Part shown: piece by piece, positions 2,792 through 13,385 of the stretch
Numbering within the stretch: position 1 is the first letter of the stretch
Layout of the letters: each line of letters opens with the position of its first letter
DNA from: a virus
IMG/VR virus record: IMGVR_UViG_3300033273_000059
Coordinates: 1 to 21,840 of that record
Reading direction: 5' to 3' (one strand)
DNA length: 21,840 bases
Notes under the pieces: generated by a model
The model's database searches: none
Told to the model about the DNA's origin: nothing
Seen by the model: the letters and a program-made list of their open reading frames with translations, nothing else
Position numbers and translations under genes: made by a program

Positions 2792-3220
2792 TTAAACCTC
2801 AGCAGTTTTCTTCTTGCCGATGTTGTACTTAGACTCAAGAATCCACTCGCCTTTCTCACGGAAGGCAATGACTTTAATCTGATTGAGAGGAGCGATGTCT
2901 TCAATTTGACTCTCAGTCACAATACTAATCAGACCCCAGTCGGACAGGAGTTTAGTAATTCTGTTGCGACGTTGCACATCATTTGTTGTTAGGTTGGTGT
3001 GCTTACCATCCAGAGCAAACAACTCTTTGAAGTGAACGATATAATACTTTCCTTTCTTGTGTAGAATATGACAAGACTGAAACAATTTCTTTTCTTTGCG
3101 TGACGCTACACCAATTCTAGTAAGAGTCTCACGCACTTTTAGAAAATCATCTGGTTGGTGGAGGGTAACCTCTACCATCATTTCAGGATCCCAAGCGATC
3201 TCGGTGGCTTGATCCATCAT
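2792..3220 (-). CDS. regA: RegA translational repressor of early mRNAs
   Basis: RegA binds translation start sites of phage early messages and blocks ribosome loading. The match to T4 RegA is strong along the length: PDDFLKVRETLTRIGVA, then FQSCHILHKKGKYYIVHFKE, then a DWGLI segment and a KYNIG ending. The protein has 142 residues against about 122 in T4. The extra part includes about 14 residues before the M that corresponds to the T4 start (MVEVTL). I keep the longer start because its ATG overlaps the gp62 stop (ATGA) and lies six bases from a perfect GGAGG. The order gp62-regA is the same as in T4. Confidence 0.93.
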   Translation of the reverse strand: MMDQATEIAWDPEMMVEVTLHQPDDFLKVRETLTRIGVASRKEKKLFQSCHILHKKGKYYIVHFKELFALDGKHTNLTTNDVQRRNRITKLLSDWGLISIVTESQIEDIAPLNQIKVIAFREKGEWILESKYNIGKKKTAEV

Positions 3221-3621
3221 CCTTTGCCTCCTGTATTCATTTTTGATCTAATCAATTCAATCTGATCTTTAGTCAGAATTCGTAACGCATCCCGTGCTTT
3301 TTCATCTGAATACTTGAAGTAATCTTTGATGAGGTCAAAGTCTTCTACCTTGTCCTTCTTCTGCCAGGGAGAGAAACGGCGTTTCTTTCTCAAACTATTT
3401 AGATAAAACGAATATTGAAGATCATTATCAAGACCGTGCAAGCGATTCATCTCGTTAGCATACATAATCGCATCAACGTGACTAGACAAACAACGGTTGA
3501 CAATGTATGCAGGATAGTTCTTACCAAATCCCTCACCATTCTCACCCTCCAGAAGATTATCCTTAGAGAAGTTGATGGTGTTTAGGTAATCTTTCAGAGG
3601 GTACTGGTCGCGCTTGCTCAT
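3217..3621 (-). CDS. 62: Clamp loader small subunit gp62
   Basis: The small subunit works with gp44 to load the gp45 sliding clamp onto primed DNA. The protein has 134 residues, shorter than T4 gp62 (187) but similar in layout. Recognisable parts are the N-terminal FSKDNLLEGENG, the segment YPAYIVNRCLSSHVDAIMYA, and the basic LRKKRRFSPWQKK patch that resembles the T4 RGKRYGKW region. Its position directly before regA supports the call. The ATG overlaps the stop of the upstream oxygenase (ATGA) and has GAGG seven bases before it. Unlike T4, it is separated from gp44 by about 3.2 kb of inserted genes. Confidence 0.82.
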   Translation of the reverse strand: MSKRDQYPLKDYLNTINFSKDNLLEGENGEGFGKNYPAYIVNRCLSSHVDAIMYANEMNRLHGLDNDLQYSFYLNSLRKKRRFSPWQKKDKVEDFDLIKDYFKYSDEKARDALRILTKDQIELIRSKMNTGGKG

Positions 3622-4139
3622 AATATATCCTCAAGTTGGGTGTCGTCAGTTGGATGTGATTGGAAAACAATACTATACCGTCGAGGGTACCCATCACGTA
3701 CAGGGGGACGTGCAAGGTGAGGAATAGTAGAATCAAACTTAATCATTCTACCTGCTCTAGGGAGAACTGACTTTATGATGTCGTCAGTTTCAGTCTCAAT
3801 AAAGATTGTCTCACCACCCATATCAACAGACCACTCAAGATTTACATATAACAAATATGTAATTCCCTTTGGACTAAACGAATCGACGTGGGGTGAAGGT
3901 GAATCACCGTGCCTAAAACAGTTGTATAGACACTTTTTTGCTGGAGGTTTTCCTATTGCTTCGTAGATCTTAGCAGCAATAGGTTCCATCTCATCCATAT
4001 TGAACGTGTTACCAAGCGTATAGTTTGCTCCAGTATCGGGACTATCTGCTAGACGCTGCCACCCACTATACATATCCAGATAATAATATGCCTCTTGACA
4101 GAGGCGACGTGAGATAGCGTTGTCAATAACTTCAATCAT
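3618..4139 (-). CDS. 2OG-Fe(II) oxygenase, prolyl-4-hydroxylase-like
   Basis: The protein has 173 residues and is a compact double-stranded beta-helix dioxygenase. The iron triad is complete: H84-x-D86 (PSPHVDSFSPKG) and H141 (STIPHLARPP), with R153 or R154 (YPRRYSIVFQS) as the 2-oxoglutarate-binding basic residue. The segment DMGGETIFIE is typical of the prolyl-4-hydroxylase-like group. The family couples decarboxylation of 2-oxoglutarate to hydroxylation or demethylation of protein, nucleic acid or small molecules; the substrate here is unknown. The start overlaps the Dam methyltransferase stop by eight bases (ATGATTGA) and the stop overlaps gp62 by four, so it is co-translated with both. 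It is one of four oxygenase-like genes in this island. Confidence 0.85.
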   Translation of the reverse strand: MIEVIDNAISRRLCQEAYYYLDMYSGWQRLADSPDTGANYTLGNTFNMDEMEPIAAKIYEAIGKPPAKKCLYNCFRHGDSPSPHVDSFSPKGITYLLYVNLEWSVDMGGETIFIETETDDIIKSVLPRAGRMIKFDSTIPHLARPPVRDGYPRRYSIVFQSHPTDDTQLEDIL

Positions 4140-4953
4140 AATTTCGTACTAGCAGTTCTTTCCGCTTAGATTGTTCAAGGTTGTACGACCCAGTGGATCG
4201 CATTGTATAAGTTAGGTTCCACTCAGTGAGGTTGTAGTGTTGAAACAACTCACGAGTATTATCGTTTGAGTTATAAGTAATCATCCAATCGTGTTTGGAT
4301 GCTCTACACACCTCAGCAAAATACTTATGATCAAAACCCTTGTGCATTGTTCCACCCCTACCACCATAGAGGAAGTCTTTGATGTCGTAAGGGGGATCCA
4401 GAAACACAAAGGTCTCGTCGGTACCATCTTCCATAAGCAGATCACTATAATCGTTGTTAGTGATATGCCAATGCTGAATCAACTCCTGAAAGTCAGGAAG
4501 TCTTTTCATACCCCGTGCACTGAAGTTGGAGTTAGATGCTTGTGCAGAGAATGAAGAGTTCTCAGTGAGTCCAGAGAAGGAGCATTTATTTAGAACATAG
4601 AAGTAAACTCCCTGCATAAACTCATTAGCATCAGCGATCTCTTGCTTACACATAGCAAACAACTCTCGTGCTGACTCAGGGTCAGGATGCTTATCTTTCA
4701 GTGCAAGGAGAGTTTCTGACATACGGTCACCCTCTTCCTGCAGTTGCACCCAGAAGTTGTACAGGTAATAGTATTTGTCATTTACCCACACATCTGCTTC
4801 TGGGTTTGCCTTAGTAAAGGCAATAGCAACAGAACCACCACCAAGAAACGGTTCACGGTAGTCGGTAACATTGTCAGGGAATTGGAGTAGCAGGTATTGT
4901 GCTGCTCGGGATTTACCCCCTGGGTACCTGAGGGGTGTCTTCAGAGATTTCAT
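4132..4953 (-). CDS. dam: DNA adenine N6-methyltransferase (Dam / D12 class)
   Basis: The protein has 273 residues, matching the D12-class (alpha) N6-adenine methyltransferases. The order of motifs is right: N-terminal LRYPGGKSRAAQYLL (motif X), REPFLGGGSVAIAF at about 33-46 (motif I, AdoMet binding), and VFLDPPYDIKD in the second half (motif IV, catalytic DPPY). Such enzymes methylate adenine, often in GATC. GATC sites are common across this window, for example near 14 and 113, so no avoidance is apparent. The start overlaps the upstream 78-residue HTH-like gene by 41 bases. No later ATG would preserve the conserved N-terminal motif, so the overlap is likely real. Probable roles are protection from host restriction or marking of phage DNA. 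Confidence 0.9.
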   Translation of the reverse strand: MKSLKTPLRYPGGKSRAAQYLLLQFPDNVTDYREPFLGGGSVAIAFTKANPEADVWVNDKYYYLYNFWVQLQEEGDRMSETLLALKDKHPDPESARELFAMCKQEIADANEFMQGVYFYVLNKCSFSGLTENSSFSAQASNSNFSARGMKRLPDFQELIQHWHITNNDYSDLLMEDGTDETFVFLDPPYDIKDFLYGGRGGTMHKGFDHKYFAEVCRASKHDWMITYNSNDNTRELFQHYNLTEWNLTYTMRSTGSYNLEQSKRKELLVRNYD

Positions 4954-5149
4954 AATCAGGTTGATGGTACTTCAAGTATTCCCAGAAGGTTAGTTTCATT
5001 TCCTTCTCGGTCATCCCACAGTGCTTGGCAGCAGTGGGCAGATTCATTGTAGCACGAAAAAGTGCTTGGTTTGCCTCTTCCACATTTTGTGGTGTTGTCT
5101 TGACCTTTGGTTCGATCAGTTTGGACAGGTCAGTTTTGAATAGACCCAT
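4913..5149 (-). CDS. Small protein with helix-turn-helix-like segment next to dam
   Basis: The protein has 78 residues. The second half (LPTAAKHCGMTEKEMKLTFW) has the spacing of a helix-turn-helix: a helix ending in AAKHCG, a turn, then a second helix beginning at T-E. The N-terminal half is Lys/Pro-rich and may be flexible. It starts with a one-base overlap (TAATG) with the oxygenase upstream and runs 41 bases into dam. A DNA-binding or host-transcription-modulating role is an inference from the motif alone; the family is not named. Confidence 0.68.
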   Translation of the reverse strand: MGLFKTDLSKLIEPKVKTTPQNVEEANQALFRATMNLPTAAKHCGMTEKEMKLTFWEYLKYHQPDYEISEDTPQVPRG

Positions 5150-5691
5150 TAATAGGATGCCTCCATACCTCTGACAGTTATGTTACCAGACACTGAGATC
5201 CTTTGTCCATCGCATTTGAAAGGATACACATAATGATTCAACCAAGATGGGAAGATAAACACATCGCCCTTATCAGGTTTGATGGGTCCGAAGGTGCTTC
5301 TAGCACCAGGTAACTTCTCACCATAATTGAAGAAAATAGAACCTGCTGCTTGACTTTCTTCCCACATACCCTCAGGGATGTCAACGAAAGCCACAAAACT
5401 GTATTCACCATCGTGACTGTGCACTGGTTGCCAGTCACCAGCAACAGAGAAATTTACCCAGAGAGGTTCAACATCAATTTCACCTTTGATAAAAAGGTAC
5501 TCTCGAATCATATCGTGGAGTTCCTTAAGGACAGAATCAGATGGGTAAATATACAACTGATCCGTAACTTCACCAACAAGGATCGATGATGCATCAGCAT
5601 CTGCTTTGAAAGCATCCTCTAAAAGTTGCTTACGAATCCTTTCACTAAGTTTCCCCCTATACATCAGGGGACCGAATGGAGTTAGTATCAT
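5149..5691 (-). CDS. Putative 2OG-Fe(II) oxygenase, TIGR02466-like
   Basis: The protein has 180 residues. The core matches the TIGR02466-type putative oxygenases: a WVNF strand at about 78-81, then WQPVHSHDGEYSFVAFVDIP with H91-x-H93, a GDVFIFPSWLNHYVYPF segment with H153, and QRISVSGN with R164. The usual HxD pair is HSH here, followed directly by D94, so the acidic iron ligand is not in the standard place and catalysis is not assured. The start overlaps the next upstream oxygenase by four bases (ATGA). It probably arose by duplication within the island. The substrate is unknown. Confidence 0.75.
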   Translation of the reverse strand: MILTPFGPLMYRGKLSERIRKQLLEDAFKADADASSILVGEVTDQLYIYPSDSVLKELHDMIREYLFIKGEIDVEPLWVNFSVAGDWQPVHSHDGEYSFVAFVDIPEGMWEESQAAGSIFFNYGEKLPGARSTFGPIKPDKGDVFIFPSWLNHYVYPFKCDGQRISVSGNITVRGMEASY

Positions 5692-6299
5692 ACATTCACC
5701 TTTAGATTGACCATATTTTGACCGTACGGTCCAAAGTTTACACCACCATCAGGAAGACAATTCCAAGCAATAGCAGCACGGGGTTCTGGTCCGTGATGTG
5801 GTACCGACCAATGTATCATCCAACTTGGCCAGATGAGTAGTTGACCAGGCGTCGGTTCAATGCCAACAGCATTCTCATACGTTCCACTAATGATCTCCAA
5901 CTGGTTCATCGTACGTGGCGTCAGAGGGTCTTGGAAGACCGTAGGAGACCCTTCTGTGAGGTAATAGATACCAGACAGGTAGGAGAACGGATGTCTGTGT
6001 GCCTGATGGCACCCACCGCTATCAGGACCACTTACGTTACCCCAAGAAAGGCATACCTTAAAATCACCTTGGAACTGCAGTTGTTCCTCTTCCTTGATCT
6101 CGGCAAGGCAACTCTCAATCCAACGATGAAGTTCTGAGAACTCTTCCCTCTCGTGAAGATCCCCCTTAGTGGTCTCCACCATATTTGGAATGTTAAACAA
6201 CCCACGCTCCAACTCCATAAGAGCTGAAAGCGTGGGCTCTACCAGATCCTTATTCTCAAAGGTGTAAAATTTAACTGGGAAGAATGTGTGAGTTTCCAT
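5688..6299 (-). CDS. Putative 2OG-Fe(II) oxygenase, TIGR02466-like
   Basis: The protein has 203 residues with the same plan as its downstream neighbour: WGNVS, then HQAHRHPFSYLSGIYYL with H101-x-H103, PTPGQLLIWPSWMIHW with H163, and RAAIAWN with R174. The LSGIYYL and LLIWPSW strings are hallmarks of the TIGR02466 group. As in the neighbour, an HxH pair replaces HxD. The start lies inside the end of the upstream oxygenase (29-base overlap); the ATG at 6299 is the only one that gives the full N-terminus. A hydroxylase role is a family-level inference. Confidence 0.78.
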   Translation of the reverse strand: METHTFFPVKFYTFENKDLVEPTLSALMELERGLFNIPNMVETTKGDLHEREEFSELHRWIESCLAEIKEEEQLQFQGDFKVCLSWGNVSGPDSGGCHQAHRHPFSYLSGIYYLTEGSPTVFQDPLTPRTMNQLEIISGTYENAVGIEPTPGQLLIWPSWMIHWSVPHHGPEPRAAIAWNCLPDGGVNFGPYGQNMVNLKVNV

Positions 6300-6861
6300 A
6301 ATAATTAATATTCAAAATGGTACGGTGTTTATTTTTTCTTGGTGCTGTACCCGAATGATAATGGAGACCATCAAAGATAACATACTTACCCTTTACTGGA
6401 TCGATGTATTGCTTAGGTGTGACTGATTCTGGTGGAGTTCCATCATAGGTCTCTTTGTATATATGCGTTGGACCATCACTATCATTCACATAGTAGATCA
6501 TCACATAATGAGGTAGTGGTGAATCTACGTGTGGTTGAGTTGGAGGAACAAAGTCCTTCATAACTTTAGCAGCACGTACCCTCAGCAGTTGACCAAAGTC
6601 TATATCAGGTTCGTTGCGGATGACCCACTGCCACAGATCATTGAACACAATGTCATATGCATTCGATTGTATCTGGTTGTCTGTAGAAATTATATGCGCG
6701 AAATACGGATGCTCTTCATACCCAGGTAGTTGAAGAACTTCCGCATTGCCGTTGTATTTAGATGTAAATTCCTGATAGAACCAGGGAAAGGTGTTGTCCC
6801 TGCAGAGGACTTCATAAATCCAATCACTGATTTTATCTGGAACGTATCCGACCTTGATCAT
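6271..6861 (-). CDS. 2OG-Fe(II) oxygenase with complete HxD...H...R set
   Basis: I start at ATG 6861 (196 residues), whose ATGA overlaps the gp44 stop. The alternative is a TTG twelve bases upstream. The iron triad is complete: H111-x-D113 (TQPHVDSPLPHYVMIYYVN) and H169 (DGLHYHSGTAP), with R180 (KHRTILNINY) for 2-oxoglutarate. FDGLHYHSGTAP followed by R is a common ending for phage dioxygenases of this fold. It is the first gene of the insertion between the two clamp-loader genes and is translationally coupled to gp44. The substrate is unknown. Confidence 0.82.
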   Translation of the reverse strand: MIKVGYVPDKISDWIYEVLCRDNTFPWFYQEFTSKYNGNAEVLQLPGYEEHPYFAHIISTDNQIQSNAYDIVFNDLWQWVIRNEPDIDFGQLLRVRAAKVMKDFVPPTQPHVDSPLPHYVMIYYVNDSDGPTHIYKETYDGTPPESVTPKQYIDPVKGKYVIFDGLHYHSGTAPRKNKHRTILNINYYGNSHILPS

Positions 6862-7790
6862 TTGAATTGACAATGCATCATAAGTTCGGTTAGAAATGCC
6901 ACCAGGTTGATCTCCTGATCGGCAACGAAAGCAGACTTGTACTGGTACTCACCGATGATGAGTACTGCTTGAGGAATGCTTTGAGGTTGGAGATGGGTGT
7001 AAAGACTATCATAAATGCTCCTGATAATAGATGCTGGTTCATTGTCAAGATTCTGGACGACCCACTTACGCATCTTAGTGAACTCTTTATCCTTCAAGAA
7101 AGATATGAGATCATCGACTTTAGTAGATGCGTTAGCAAGAACTCCAGTATCGATCTGTCCCTGAGCACTGTACCGTTGCAACTCATTGAGGGTACGACGG
7201 AAATCAGGGAAATACTTCTGTACTAGCGCCGCCAGAACACGAGGTTCCGAAGTGATCCTTTCCTTGTCCAAGATGTCTTGGACTCGTTTGAAGAAGGTTG
7301 CGGCAAGTTGCTGCTTGTTTCCTCCAGTGAATTCAACCACTGAGCAACGGGAATGAAGTGGTTGGATGATTTTGTTTTTGTAGTTGCAAGTGAAGATGAA
7401 TCTGCAGTTGCTACTAAACTCCTCAATAGACGCCCGTAGGAGGAGTTGTACATCGTGCGTGGTGTTATCTGCCTCATCAATGATGATGACTTTGTGCTTA
7501 GAAGACGATGTAAGTGAGACGGTCGAAGCGAAGTTCTTCGCATTGTTTCTGACAGTATCGAGGAATCTACCCTCGTCAGATCCATTGATGACATAGTAAT
7601 CTGCTCCAAGTTGTTCGCAAAGTGCCTTTGCCACTGTGGTCTTACCGATGCCAGGAGGACCAGATAGCAGCAGGTTGGGGATTTCCCCCTTCTCTACAAA
7701 TTTTTGAAATACACTTTTAGTCTCATCGGGGAGAATACACTCATCGATGGTCTTGGGTCGGTACTTCTCAACCCAGAGAAAATCACTCAT
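6858..7790 (-). CDS. 44: Clamp loader large subunit gp44, AAA+ ATPase
   Basis: The protein has 310 residues (T4: 319). It opens with WVEKYRPKTIDECILPD, the standard clamp-loader start. Walker A is GPPGIGKT at 44-51, Walker B is VIIIDEAD at 101-108 and the SRC sensor/arginine-finger motif is at 147-149. Four copies with one gp62 open gp45 and place it on DNA using ATP. It follows speD by two bases and is coupled to the oxygenase downstream, not to gp62 as in T4. Confidence 0.95.
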   Translation of the reverse strand: MSDFLWVEKYRPKTIDECILPDETKSVFQKFVEKGEIPNLLLSGPPGIGKTTVAKALCEQLGADYYVINGSDEGRFLDTVRNNAKNFASTVSLTSSSKHKVIIIDEADNTTHDVQLLLRASIEEFSSNCRFIFTCNYKNKIIQPLHSRCSVVEFTGGNKQQLAATFFKRVQDILDKERITSEPRVLAALVQKYFPDFRRTLNELQRYSAQGQIDTGVLANASTKVDDLISFLKDKEFTKMRKWVVQNLDNEPASIIRSIYDSLYTHLQPQSIPQAVLIIGEYQYKSAFVADQEINLVAFLTELMMHCQFK

Positions 7791-12750: not shown

Positions 12751-12811
12751 CGTACTTGTCCTTTAGTTTGTTGATCAGATCATCATACCAAAGAGTGTTG
12801 TCGTCAGGCAT
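12668..12811 (-). CDS. Small hypothetical protein, 47 aa
   Basis: An ATG at 12811 overlaps the oxygenase stop by eight bases (ATGCCTGA), the same junction type as seen at gp46/oxygenase and dam/oxygenase. The protein begins MPDDNTLWYDDLINKLKDKY, contains SPQLATPQQERKK and ends at a TGA at 12668, before the hairpin. It is hydrophilic with no recognised domain. The junction geometry and its ending before the structured leader favour it as the real gene, although a second ORF overlaps it in another frame. Confidence 0.55.
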   Translation of the reverse strand: MPDDNTLWYDDLINKLKDKYDDSPQLATPQQERKKATPETSSNEGTA

Positions 12812-13385
12812 CAAGCATAGAGGGGAAACGCTCTCTTCTATCTATCTCATTAAGGGACAGCATAAAGGAAATTGTCCATCTTTCTTCATCTGAGTAGTTA
12901 TACAGGACTTCGTGATCAAGATAACCTGGCCAGATCAAAAGATCCGTTTCAGTTGGGATGTGCATATGAATACCAGCGTGGTACGGTTTATGCAGCATCA
13001 TTGCTTCTACAACTGGAGATGGATTGTAAAATTGAATTGCGCCCGAATCTGGATTCGGTACTTTCAAGTAATACGTTCCTGCCATATCACAGCAAGCGTG
13101 GTTGTGTCTAGTCTGATACGATCCAGGTGGATTGATGTTAACCCAACAGTATGCAACTTCCAACTTGTCATCATACTCTGCAATCGCCTCATTTAGAAAC
13201 TGACCAAACTCAGGGTACTCTCTATGCAATTTGTTCTGAGAACGAACTGTAGAGAACCCTGTACCGTTAAAGCGATTGTCTGGTACACAGAACTCTTCAC
13301 GACGACTCATAAGTCTAAACTTAAGTGCTTCGTGAACTTCTGGATCTAACTCTTTGGATCCTCTATATGATGGTACATCAAACAT
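12804..13385 (-). CDS. Putative 2OG-Fe(II) oxygenase, TIGR02466-like
   Basis: From ATG 13385 (eight-base overlap with the gp46 stop, ATGTTTGA) the protein has 193 residues; a TTG two codons earlier is less likely. The core is WVNINPPGSYQTRHNHACCD, with H94-x-H96, then MAGTYYLKVP, TETDLLIWPGYLDHEV with H158, and RWTISFML with R169. This is the same HxH variant plan as the two TIGR02466-like genes near 5.1-6.3 kb, so it is a distant paralogue placed outside that island. The reaction is inferred only from family. Confidence 0.76.
   Translation of the reverse strand: MFDVPSYRGSKELDPEVHEALKFRLMSRREEFCVPDNRFNGTGFSTVRSQNKLHREYPEFGQFLNEAIAEYDDKLEVAYCWVNINPPGSYQTRHNHACCDMAGTYYLKVPNPDSGAIQFYNPSPVVEAMMLHKPYHAGIHMHIPTETDLLIWPGYLDHEVLYNYSDEERWTISFMLSLNEIDRRERFPSMLDA

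Follow-up and report, generated by a model that had tools for sequence, protein, structure and literature searches.

A conserved block of four putative 2OG-Fe(II) oxygenase genes around an exchangeable adenine methyltransferase gene, between the clamp-loader genes of a marine T4-like virus

Four apparently working, iron-dependent 2OG-Fe(II) oxygenase genes, as judged from their sequences, lie around an adenine methyltransferase gene (dam) between the clamp-loader genes gp44 and gp62 of a marine T4-like virus of the cyanophage type, and this block is real, co-inherited and colinear in one virus lineage. We consider it probable that the gap between gp44 and gp62 is a long-standing, variable insertion slot of marine T4-like phages, that the lineage inherited the four active-looking oxygenases as a block around an exchangeable dam, and that these enzymes hydroxylate targets other than the product of Dam.

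Layout of the gp44-gp62 island

The window, that is, the whole stretch of 21,840 nucleotides analysed, contains on its minus strand the single run gp44-oxyA-oxyB-oxyC-hth-dam-oxyD-gp62-regA, with an overlap at every junction. The genes of this run, together with a fifth oxygenase gene outside the island, are as follows:

6858-7790, minus strand: gp44, large subunit of the clamp loader, bounding the slot upstream (PHROG 168, E 7e-138; PF00004; PF21328)
6271-6861, minus strand: oxyA, 2OG-Fe(II) oxygenase-like, 196 aa, HVD..H..R (PF13640, E 0.0026, under the cut-off)
5688-6299, minus strand: oxyB, 2OG-Fe(II) oxygenase, 203 aa, HRH..H..R (PF13759, E 2.4e-14)
5149-5691, minus strand: oxyC, 2OG-Fe(II) oxygenase, 180 aa, HSH..H..R (PF13759, E 3.3e-14)
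4913-5149, minus strand: hth, HTH-like protein, 78 aa (PHROG 1920, E 1e-34, function not annotated)
4132-4953, minus strand: dam, D12-class N6-adenine DNA methyltransferase with a DPPY motif (PF02086, E 3e-31)
3618-4139, minus strand: oxyD, 2OG-Fe(II) oxygenase, prolyl-hydroxylase-like, HVD..H..R (PF13640, E 3e-9)
3217-3621, minus strand: gp62, small subunit of the clamp loader, bounding the slot downstream (PHROG 225, E 2e-45; PF16790, E 1.5e-11)
2792-3220, minus strand: regA translational repressor, assigned by position (ATGA overlap with gp62; same order in annotated isolates)
12804-13385, minus strand: oxyE, fifth 2OG-Fe(II) oxygenase, adjoining gp46 and outside the island (PF13759, E 8e-18)

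The T4 clamp-loader profiles matched both subunits, in the order gp44..gp62-regA. The oxyA ATG lies within the gp44 stop (ATGA), with an alternative TTG start for oxyA at 6873, and the same ATGA arrangement is found at the oxyB/oxyC, oxyD/gp62 and gp62/regA junctions. The remaining junctions are overlaps of 29 nt (oxyA/oxyB), 41 nt (hth/dam) and 8 nt (dam/oxyD), and a TAATG (oxyC/hth). The earlier note had described an island that splits gp44 from gp62, with its genes joined by overlapping stops and starts; the ORF map and the PHROG matches of the two border genes confirmed the former, and the junctions, without exception, the latter.

Families, active sites and folds of the oxygenases

We assigned the enzymes by curated profile cut-offs (27 bits for PF13759, 27 bits for PF13640 and 62.5 bits for TIGR02466). 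As a result, OxyB (54.0 bits), OxyC (53.5 bits) and OxyE (65.1 bits) all exceeded the cut-off of PF13759 (2OG-FeII_Oxy_5), and only OxyE passed that of TIGR02466, with 68.5 bits against 57.4 for OxyB and 41.4 for OxyC. OxyD, which has the HxD..H..R set, scored 38.1 bits against PF13640. OxyA reached 19.1 bits with the same profile and is named oxygenase-like only, because this score is under the cut-off, though its HxD..H..R residues are present and invariant (H111, D113, H169 and R180 in 11 sequences). Likewise invariant are H101, H103, H163 and R174 of OxyB (28 sequences), H91, H93, H153 and R164 of OxyC among its relatives, and the active-site residues of OxyD among its own. The motifs are indeed as first read by eye, namely HxD twice (HVD in OxyA and OxyD) and HxH twice (HRH in OxyB, HSH in OxyC). 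The possibility that HxH marks a degenerate or inactive variant was ruled out, since the HxH..H..R of OxyB and OxyC aligns with that of the solved structures 3bvc and 2rg4 and is invariant among their relatives; it is the normal motif of PF13759.

The predicted structure of OxyB (pLDDT 89) adopts a double-stranded beta-helix fold like that of 3bvc and 2rg4, with 3bvc as the best PDB match (E 7e-12, TM 0.67), and after these PF13759 structures the model matched HygX, a P4H solved with EF-Tu (4iw3) and PHD2. The prediction for OxyA (pLDDT 45) was too poor for use, and its profile had no match among solved structures. The OxyD profile matched the P4H-domain protein 9ei6 (2e-5), OGFOD1 (3e-4) and PHD2 (about 1e-3). 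A search of genome contigs with back-translated patterns, which detects close relatives only, found no cellular relatives of OxyD, and a search of the virus's own genome for PF05118 (Asp/Arg hydroxylase) gave no match, the control being equally without one.

Inheritance of the block and of dam

At least 11 distinct variants, drawn from different metagenomes, share the colinear four-oxygenase order, and the block is therefore not a product of chance. At each of the 14 loci measured, oxyA and oxyB overlap by 29 nt, and oxyD and gp62 overlap by 4 nt at each of the 12 where both were read; OxyC identity among the variants falls to about 55%. Pairwise identities of the four oxygenases are correlated (0.79-0.92), and a single origin of the block is compatible with the gp44 tree of 100 rows. 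Furthermore, every gene is under purifying selection, with dN/dS mostly 0.04-0.15 between near relatives (0.09-0.14 for OxyA; 0.08-0.15 for OxyC versus its 3 nearest relatives). The linkage of the genes as a unit, claimed in the earlier note, thus holds within one lineage. Variants of the set also occur: OxyB is found without OxyA, OxyC and OxyD in other phages, OxyD in the alternative order oxyB-oxyD-dam, OxyA-C without OxyD in locus L268, and, at another location in L278, a homologue of OxyC next to an OxyA-like gene. The HNH nucleases and varied cargo of the slot would suit an island of passenger DNA at an insertion hotspot, weakly selected and without shared function, but purifying selection on every gene, and an order and overlaps that are kept even where protein identity is about 55%, largely contradict this reading already, and we regard it as very improbable.

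The methyltransferase behaves differently. Dam is well supported as an adenine methyltransferase, as had been claimed (109.5 bits against PF02086, cut-off 22; catalytic motif present as FLDPPYD), with 92.1 bits against TIGR00571, below the cut-off of 114.85. Between the window and its relative L001, however, Dam is only 59% identical, versus 88-91% for OxyA, OxyB and OxyD. Dam of the window groups with that of L083, which has a different island, whereas gp44 and OxyB of the window group with L001, and an AU test rejected the gp44 and OxyB relationships for Dam (p 0.006 and 0.0002). By these comparisons, Dam alone has been exchanged within an otherwise conserved block. The 78-aa gene hth (PHROG 1920) lies directly upstream of dam in 17 of 25 other cyanophages; inspection of the segment AAKHCGMTxKEMKLTFWEYL makes an HTH-like reading plausible, but Pfam, NCBIfam and PDB profiles gave no support, and we did not retain the HTH identity.

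The earlier note had raised the possibility that methylation and oxidation act in sequence, on nucleic acid or protein; in the DNA version, Dam would produce N6-methyladenine in phage DNA, and the oxygenases would oxidise this base or otherwise modify the DNA. Base modification by an oxygenase following methylation has a precedent in other phage enzymes (TET-type), the Dam and oxygenase genes are adjacent and overlapping, and Dam is present wherever a complete gp44-gp62 interval contains an OxyA-D ortholog. However, none of the five oxygenases matched the AlkB (PF13532) or TET/JBP (PF12851) profiles at E<=1, and on the gp44 tree Dam presence requires 12 changes versus 2 for OxyB presence, which does not suit an inherited functional pair. 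Each also occurs without the other: Dam lacking an oxygenase partner is common, including in the slot of many cyanophages, and the pelagiphages HTVC008M and Mosig have a different oxygenase in a slot without Dam. In addition, Dam-bearing phages have a near-normal GATC O/E whether an oxygenase is present (median 0.93) or not (median 0.82). Because the methylase is swapped independently of the oxygenases, such a DNA pathway is disfavoured, and we rejected it as scarcely credible.

Median GATC O/E was 0.88 with Dam versus 0.69 without, an association that was not significant in an independent-pair test (6 pairs), and GATC retention was thus rejected as proof of Dam specificity. GATC is kept in most Dam-bearing phages and still avoided in some (L126, L030).

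As a separate observation on short sites, CCGG is entirely absent from these phages and CATG essentially absent from the lineage of the window. Among the genomes compared, some of whose contigs are fragments, no convincing gene was shared by all CATG-free genomes but missing elsewhere; three of the five CATG-free genomes carry a SegE-type GIY-YIG gene.

Candidate roles and known counterparts

We propose that extra genes in the gp44-gp62 slot would ride on the replication operon, and that in the lineage of the window these are the inherited oxygenases around the exchangeable dam, here with hth. The island genes would be translated early in infection with the clamp-loader genes; expression with the replication genes, as claimed earlier, is a reasonable expectation, because the co-inherited overlapping block sits inside the replication operon. 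Dam would methylate GATC and so protect the phage DNA, and its product would not be the substrate of the oxygenases, which would act elsewhere, most likely on proteins of the host or the phage, as the prolyl-hydroxylase-like OxyD may indicate, or on a small molecule. The likeliest role of the oxygenases is auxiliary hydroxylation of proteins or small molecules by enzymes expressed early, protein hydroxylation being suggested by one enzyme of the four, OxyD, through a remote similarity.

A more specific possibility is that the four enzymes form one pathway for stepwise hydroxylation of a single host protein or RNA target, for example in the translation machinery. The recurrence of the four genes together, in order and overlapping, their correlated identities, the matches of OxyD to prolyl hydroxylases including OGFOD1, which is a ribosomal-protein hydroxylase, and the fold match of OxyB to the P4H-EF-Tu complex would all be consistent with it. 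However, co-inheritance in one lineage may be mere shared descent, and the separate occurrence of OxyB, the oxyB-oxyD-dam order and the loci L268 and L278 speak against it; we hold this pathway to be unlikely. An early-expressed version with a single essential target, for example a ribosomal protein, a translation factor or a phage DNA base outside GATC, we would call rather improbable. If true, it would represent phage takeover or protection of an undescribed kind, with the slot as a dedicated site for DNA protection and takeover.

A shift of cellular 2-oxoglutarate has also been proposed as the role of cyanophage oxygenases (PMC3037559), which would then have little substrate specificity and serve to stimulate NtcA or to provide succinate. 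The numbers of such enzymes, 1-5 per cyanophage and 24 in S-SCSM1 (PMC9602691), would be in line with this role, but the island encodes four diverged enzymes of two families, and since each conserves more than cofactor residues, specific substrates are suggested; a mainly metabolic effect appears quite improbable. Of the auxiliary genes in marine viruses that still lack an explanation, phage 2OG oxygenases are some of the commonest. In this lineage four of them are fixed in a single block that is conserved, overlapping and coupled to replication, which allows all four to be cloned and tested as one set. Naturally reduced versions in cultured phages (one or two oxygenases with Dam; an oxygenase without Dam) offer controls, and the separation of Dam from the oxygenases redirects such tests away from methyladenine oxidation.

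Among known enzymes, those of PF13759/TIGR02466 (3bvc, 2rg4) share the profile with OxyB, OxyC and OxyE, the HxH..H..R motif with OxyB and OxyC, and the fold with OxyB, but at only 17-21% identity in the fold comparison. The prolyl-4-hydroxylase-like enzymes of PF13640 (PHD2, OGFOD1, bacterial P4H) share with OxyD the profile and an HxD..H..R with an Arg-Tyr strand, although this similarity is remote and prolyl hydroxylation by OxyD is putative.

As for the site, gene content was compared for 100 gp44 sequences. The two clamp-loader genes touch in distant T4-like phages, and in marine T4-like phages they are separated by 0-4.3 kb (from an overlap upwards), usually with Dam; the cargo comprises Dam, oxygenases, a DruA-like protein, an epimerase, a class-I methyltransferase, HNH nucleases, glutaredoxin, pcyA and others. 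The comparison upheld a linked, colinear block in one lineage, whereas Dam varies separately and the slot content is variable across marine phages. In the pelagiphages HTVC008M and Mosig, gp44 and gp62 are likewise split by a 2OG oxygenase (PF13640), but it is another one and Dam is missing. S-SCSM1 resembles the window in the many diverse PF13640 and PF13759 genes of one phage, as given in the part of its published account that lists them (PMC9602691), but none of its oxygenases is annotated between gp44 and gp62, and that part describes no colinear four-gene oxygenase block. The closest counterparts are the deposited isolates S-WAM1, P-RSM6, S-SZBM1, S-H38 and P-TIM40, which carry at the same site a relative of OxyB (33-41% identity), the most widely shared oxygenase there, followed by Dam and gp62, with overlapping slot genes in S-WAM1. 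Where the window has four oxygenases, these cyanophages carry a single one, or two in the case of P-TIM40, and they lack OxyA, OxyC and OxyD. The split of gp44 from gp62 and the pairing of a 2OG oxygenase with Dam are thus already present in deposited cyanophage genomes, and the four-oxygenase block is an expanded variant of this arrangement.

The oxygenase-Dam island and the integrity of its genes

The window, a 21.8-kb IMG/VR fragment, belongs to a T4-like marine phage. In its capsid protein, this phage shares 96.5% identity with Synechococcus phage S-WAM1 and 94% with the Prochlorococcus phages P-RSM6 and P-TIM40. Its replication operon lies on the minus strand, where the clamp-loader gene gp44 is followed by oxyA, oxyB, oxyC, a 78-aa gene (hth), dam, oxyD and the second clamp-loader gene gp62. 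All junctions overlap, from which we infer that translation of the island genes is coupled. Re-reading of the ORFs confirmed the coordinates and motif descriptions of the earlier note, with the following assignments.

OxyA, 6271-6861, minus strand: 2OG oxygenase-like, weak profile match to PF13640, residue set complete
OxyB and OxyC, minus strand: PF13759
hth, minus strand: 78-aa gene, PHROG 1920 (function label: unknown)
Dam, minus strand: adenine methyltransferase, PF02086
OxyD, 3618-4139, minus strand: 2OG oxygenase, PF13640
OxyE, 12804-13385: fifth 2OG oxygenase, outside the island, PF13759, adjoining gp46

Pelagiphages carry an oxygenase between gp47 and gp46, a place similar to that of OxyE. 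PHROG 274, labelled 'DNA endonuclease V', matches OxyA and OxyD, and an S-CAM1 gene with an oxygenase motif (L181 2390-2920) apparently took over this label.

By sequence, OxyA-OxyD are intact. Relatives show no variation at the metal and 2OG residues of OxyA (H111, D113, H169, R180), OxyB (H101, H103, H163, R174), OxyC (H91, H93, H153, R164) and OxyD (H84, D86, H141, R154). HxH is the norm in PF13759: two solved structures of this family, 3bvc and 2rg4, have the residue set of OxyB and OxyC in alignments and are the closest solved folds to the predicted OxyB model (pLDDT 89). Furthermore, dN/dS was mostly 0.04-0.15 among near relatives, below 0.35 in every computable case, and comparable to that of gp44 and gp62.

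Origin of the block and separability of Dam

In scans with the OxyA, OxyC and OxyD profiles, the order oxyA-oxyB-oxyC-(hth)-dam-oxyD was kept in at least 11 variants, with OxyC identity across block variants down to about 55%; a further variant (L268) lacks oxyD, and that of L121 is truncated by a contig edge. In 14 of 14 loci, oxyA and oxyB share 29 nt; the oxyD/gp62 overlap measures 4 nt in each case where both are readable. On the gp44 tree (100 rows), the oxyA-B-C state requires two changes and is compatible with a single clade (p 0.84). The block appears to have formed once and then been inherited, as the kept order and overlaps, the two changes and the compatibility with a single clade suggest.

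Parts of the block also occur elsewhere. OxyD is found as oxyB-oxyD-dam (10 of 26 distinct cases), and hth lies directly 5' of dam in many phages without OxyA-OxyD oxygenases. Away from gp44, L278 carries, at 4939-5478 and 5992-6522, an OxyA-like oxygenase and an OxyC homologue (56%) close to each other; this pair directly precedes a 1160-aa gene, structural by appearance.

The evidence from identities and trees says that Dam is separable from the oxygenases. Between the window and its relative L001, OxyA, OxyB and OxyD share 88-91% and gp44 89% identity, versus 59% for Dam. The window's gp44 and OxyB pair with L001 in trees, and its Dam with L083 (84% identity), whose island differs. AU tests, for which the groups were chosen after viewing quick trees so that the p values are a guide rather than a strict test, rejected the window-L001 pairing (p 0.006) and whole-cassette grouping (p 0.0002) for Dam; for OxyB and gp44, they rejected pairing of the window with L083 (p < 1e-7). 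On the gp44 tree, the presence of Dam switches 12 times, and that of OxyB twice. A DruA-like protein (DUF4338, PF14236) occupies the gp44-gp62 slot in 7 of 17 Dam-less and 0 of 72 Dam-bearing intervals (Fisher p 3e-6, uncorrected for kinship; six changes on the gp44 tree), replacing Dam in L035 (1746-2873), L044, L067, L079, L080, L167 (SynMITS9220M01) and L168 (S-T4).

Proposed functions and the missing CCGG and CATG sites

A profile search matched the oxygenases to neither the AlkB nor the TET/JBP families. This, with the separability of Dam, speaks against the methylation-then-oxidation pathway proposed earlier, and Dam's product would not be a target of the oxygenases. The profile matches of OxyD were the P4H-domain protein 9ei6 (2e-5), OGFOD1 (3e-4) and PHD2 (about 1e-3), and its score against a FlmC-type oxygenase model fell far under the cut-off. 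The oxygenases would be auxiliary hydroxylases, co-expressed with the replication genes and acting most likely on proteins, or else on small molecules. Several 2OG oxygenases per cyanophage have been described, with proposed roles in DNA repair or 2OG balance (PMC3037559); PMC9602691 gives 24 for S-SCSM1.

Protection through methylation of GATC is the probable role of Dam. Median observed/expected GATC was 0.88 with Dam versus 0.69 without, and Dam-less pelagiphages, L166, L170 (HTVC008M) and L183 (Mosig), strongly avoid the site (0.07-0.27; 19 of 80 and 6 of 91 expected sites). Since an independent-pair test gave no significance to the Dam-GATC association, we infer this role only as probable.

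CCGG is absent from every phage of the oxygenase-Dam lineage examined: seven long contigs (739 kb) contain 0, against an expectation of about 680. In the window's sub-lineage, CATG is also missing from four contigs (0 versus about 1,200 expected), and a fifth, of 187 kb, has 12 versus 664 expected, all in its last 2.4 kb (L340 5063-7347). The window has two (129 and 443, inside its first 450 bp) versus about 76 expected. Sites in these two contigs thus lie only at the ends, which may represent chimeric sequence or a recent acquisition. The sister lineage (genomes G005 and G006, S-WAM1, P-TIM40) has nearly normal CATG. The CCGG and CATG observations come from the following stretches, where AGCT and GGCC are depleted as well, and GATC is not.

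The whole window
L325-L340 (187-kb contig)
L348-L352
L357-L361
L333-L334
L362-L365

The T4 genes for breakdown of host DNA are missing from cyanomyoviruses, which possibly use an undescribed method (PMC2984593). A candidate phage-borne sequence-specific nuclease would explain both the site loss and host-DNA degradation, although no gene for it was found; a nuclease of either phage or host is the obvious idea for the site loss.

The gp44-gp62 slot in known phages

We found no description of a gp44-gp62 oxygenase block in the literature, of which our coverage was incomplete. Two deposits annotated as 'cytosine-specific DNA methyltransferase', L171 12618-13481 (S-WAM1) and L174 5755-6603 (S-SZBM1), are relatives of the adenine methyltransferase Dam by sequence. 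In sister islands, a Methyltransf_24 gene (class-I, TylF-like) 5' of oxyB (L155 7783-8391, L338 15131-15730 and relatives) could be a small-molecule methyltransferase.

Among IMG/VR relatives, the gp44-gp62 gap ranges from an overlap to 4.3 kb. The two genes adjoin in the annotated records of Vibrio phage D492 and Salmonella phage SFP10; Dam and small genes fill the slot in Bellamy, S-RIM2, S-SCSM1, ACG-2014d and P-HM2, glutaredoxin occurs there in ACG-2014f and S-CAM7, and other contigs hold an epimerase, a class-I methyltransferase, HNH nucleases or the DruA-like protein. The slot contains an oxygenase without Dam in pelagiphages HTVC008M and Mosig. S-WAM1, P-RSM6, S-SZBM1 and S-H38 combine a single oxygenase with Dam there, and P-TIM40 has two oxygenases together with Dam and pcyA. 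The gene-content comparison suggested by the earlier note upholds the island as real, but for a marine T4-like phage the separation of gp44 from gp62 is ordinary, and public cyanophage records already contained the oxygenase-Dam pair. The novelty is the expansion of the slot content to four oxygenases.
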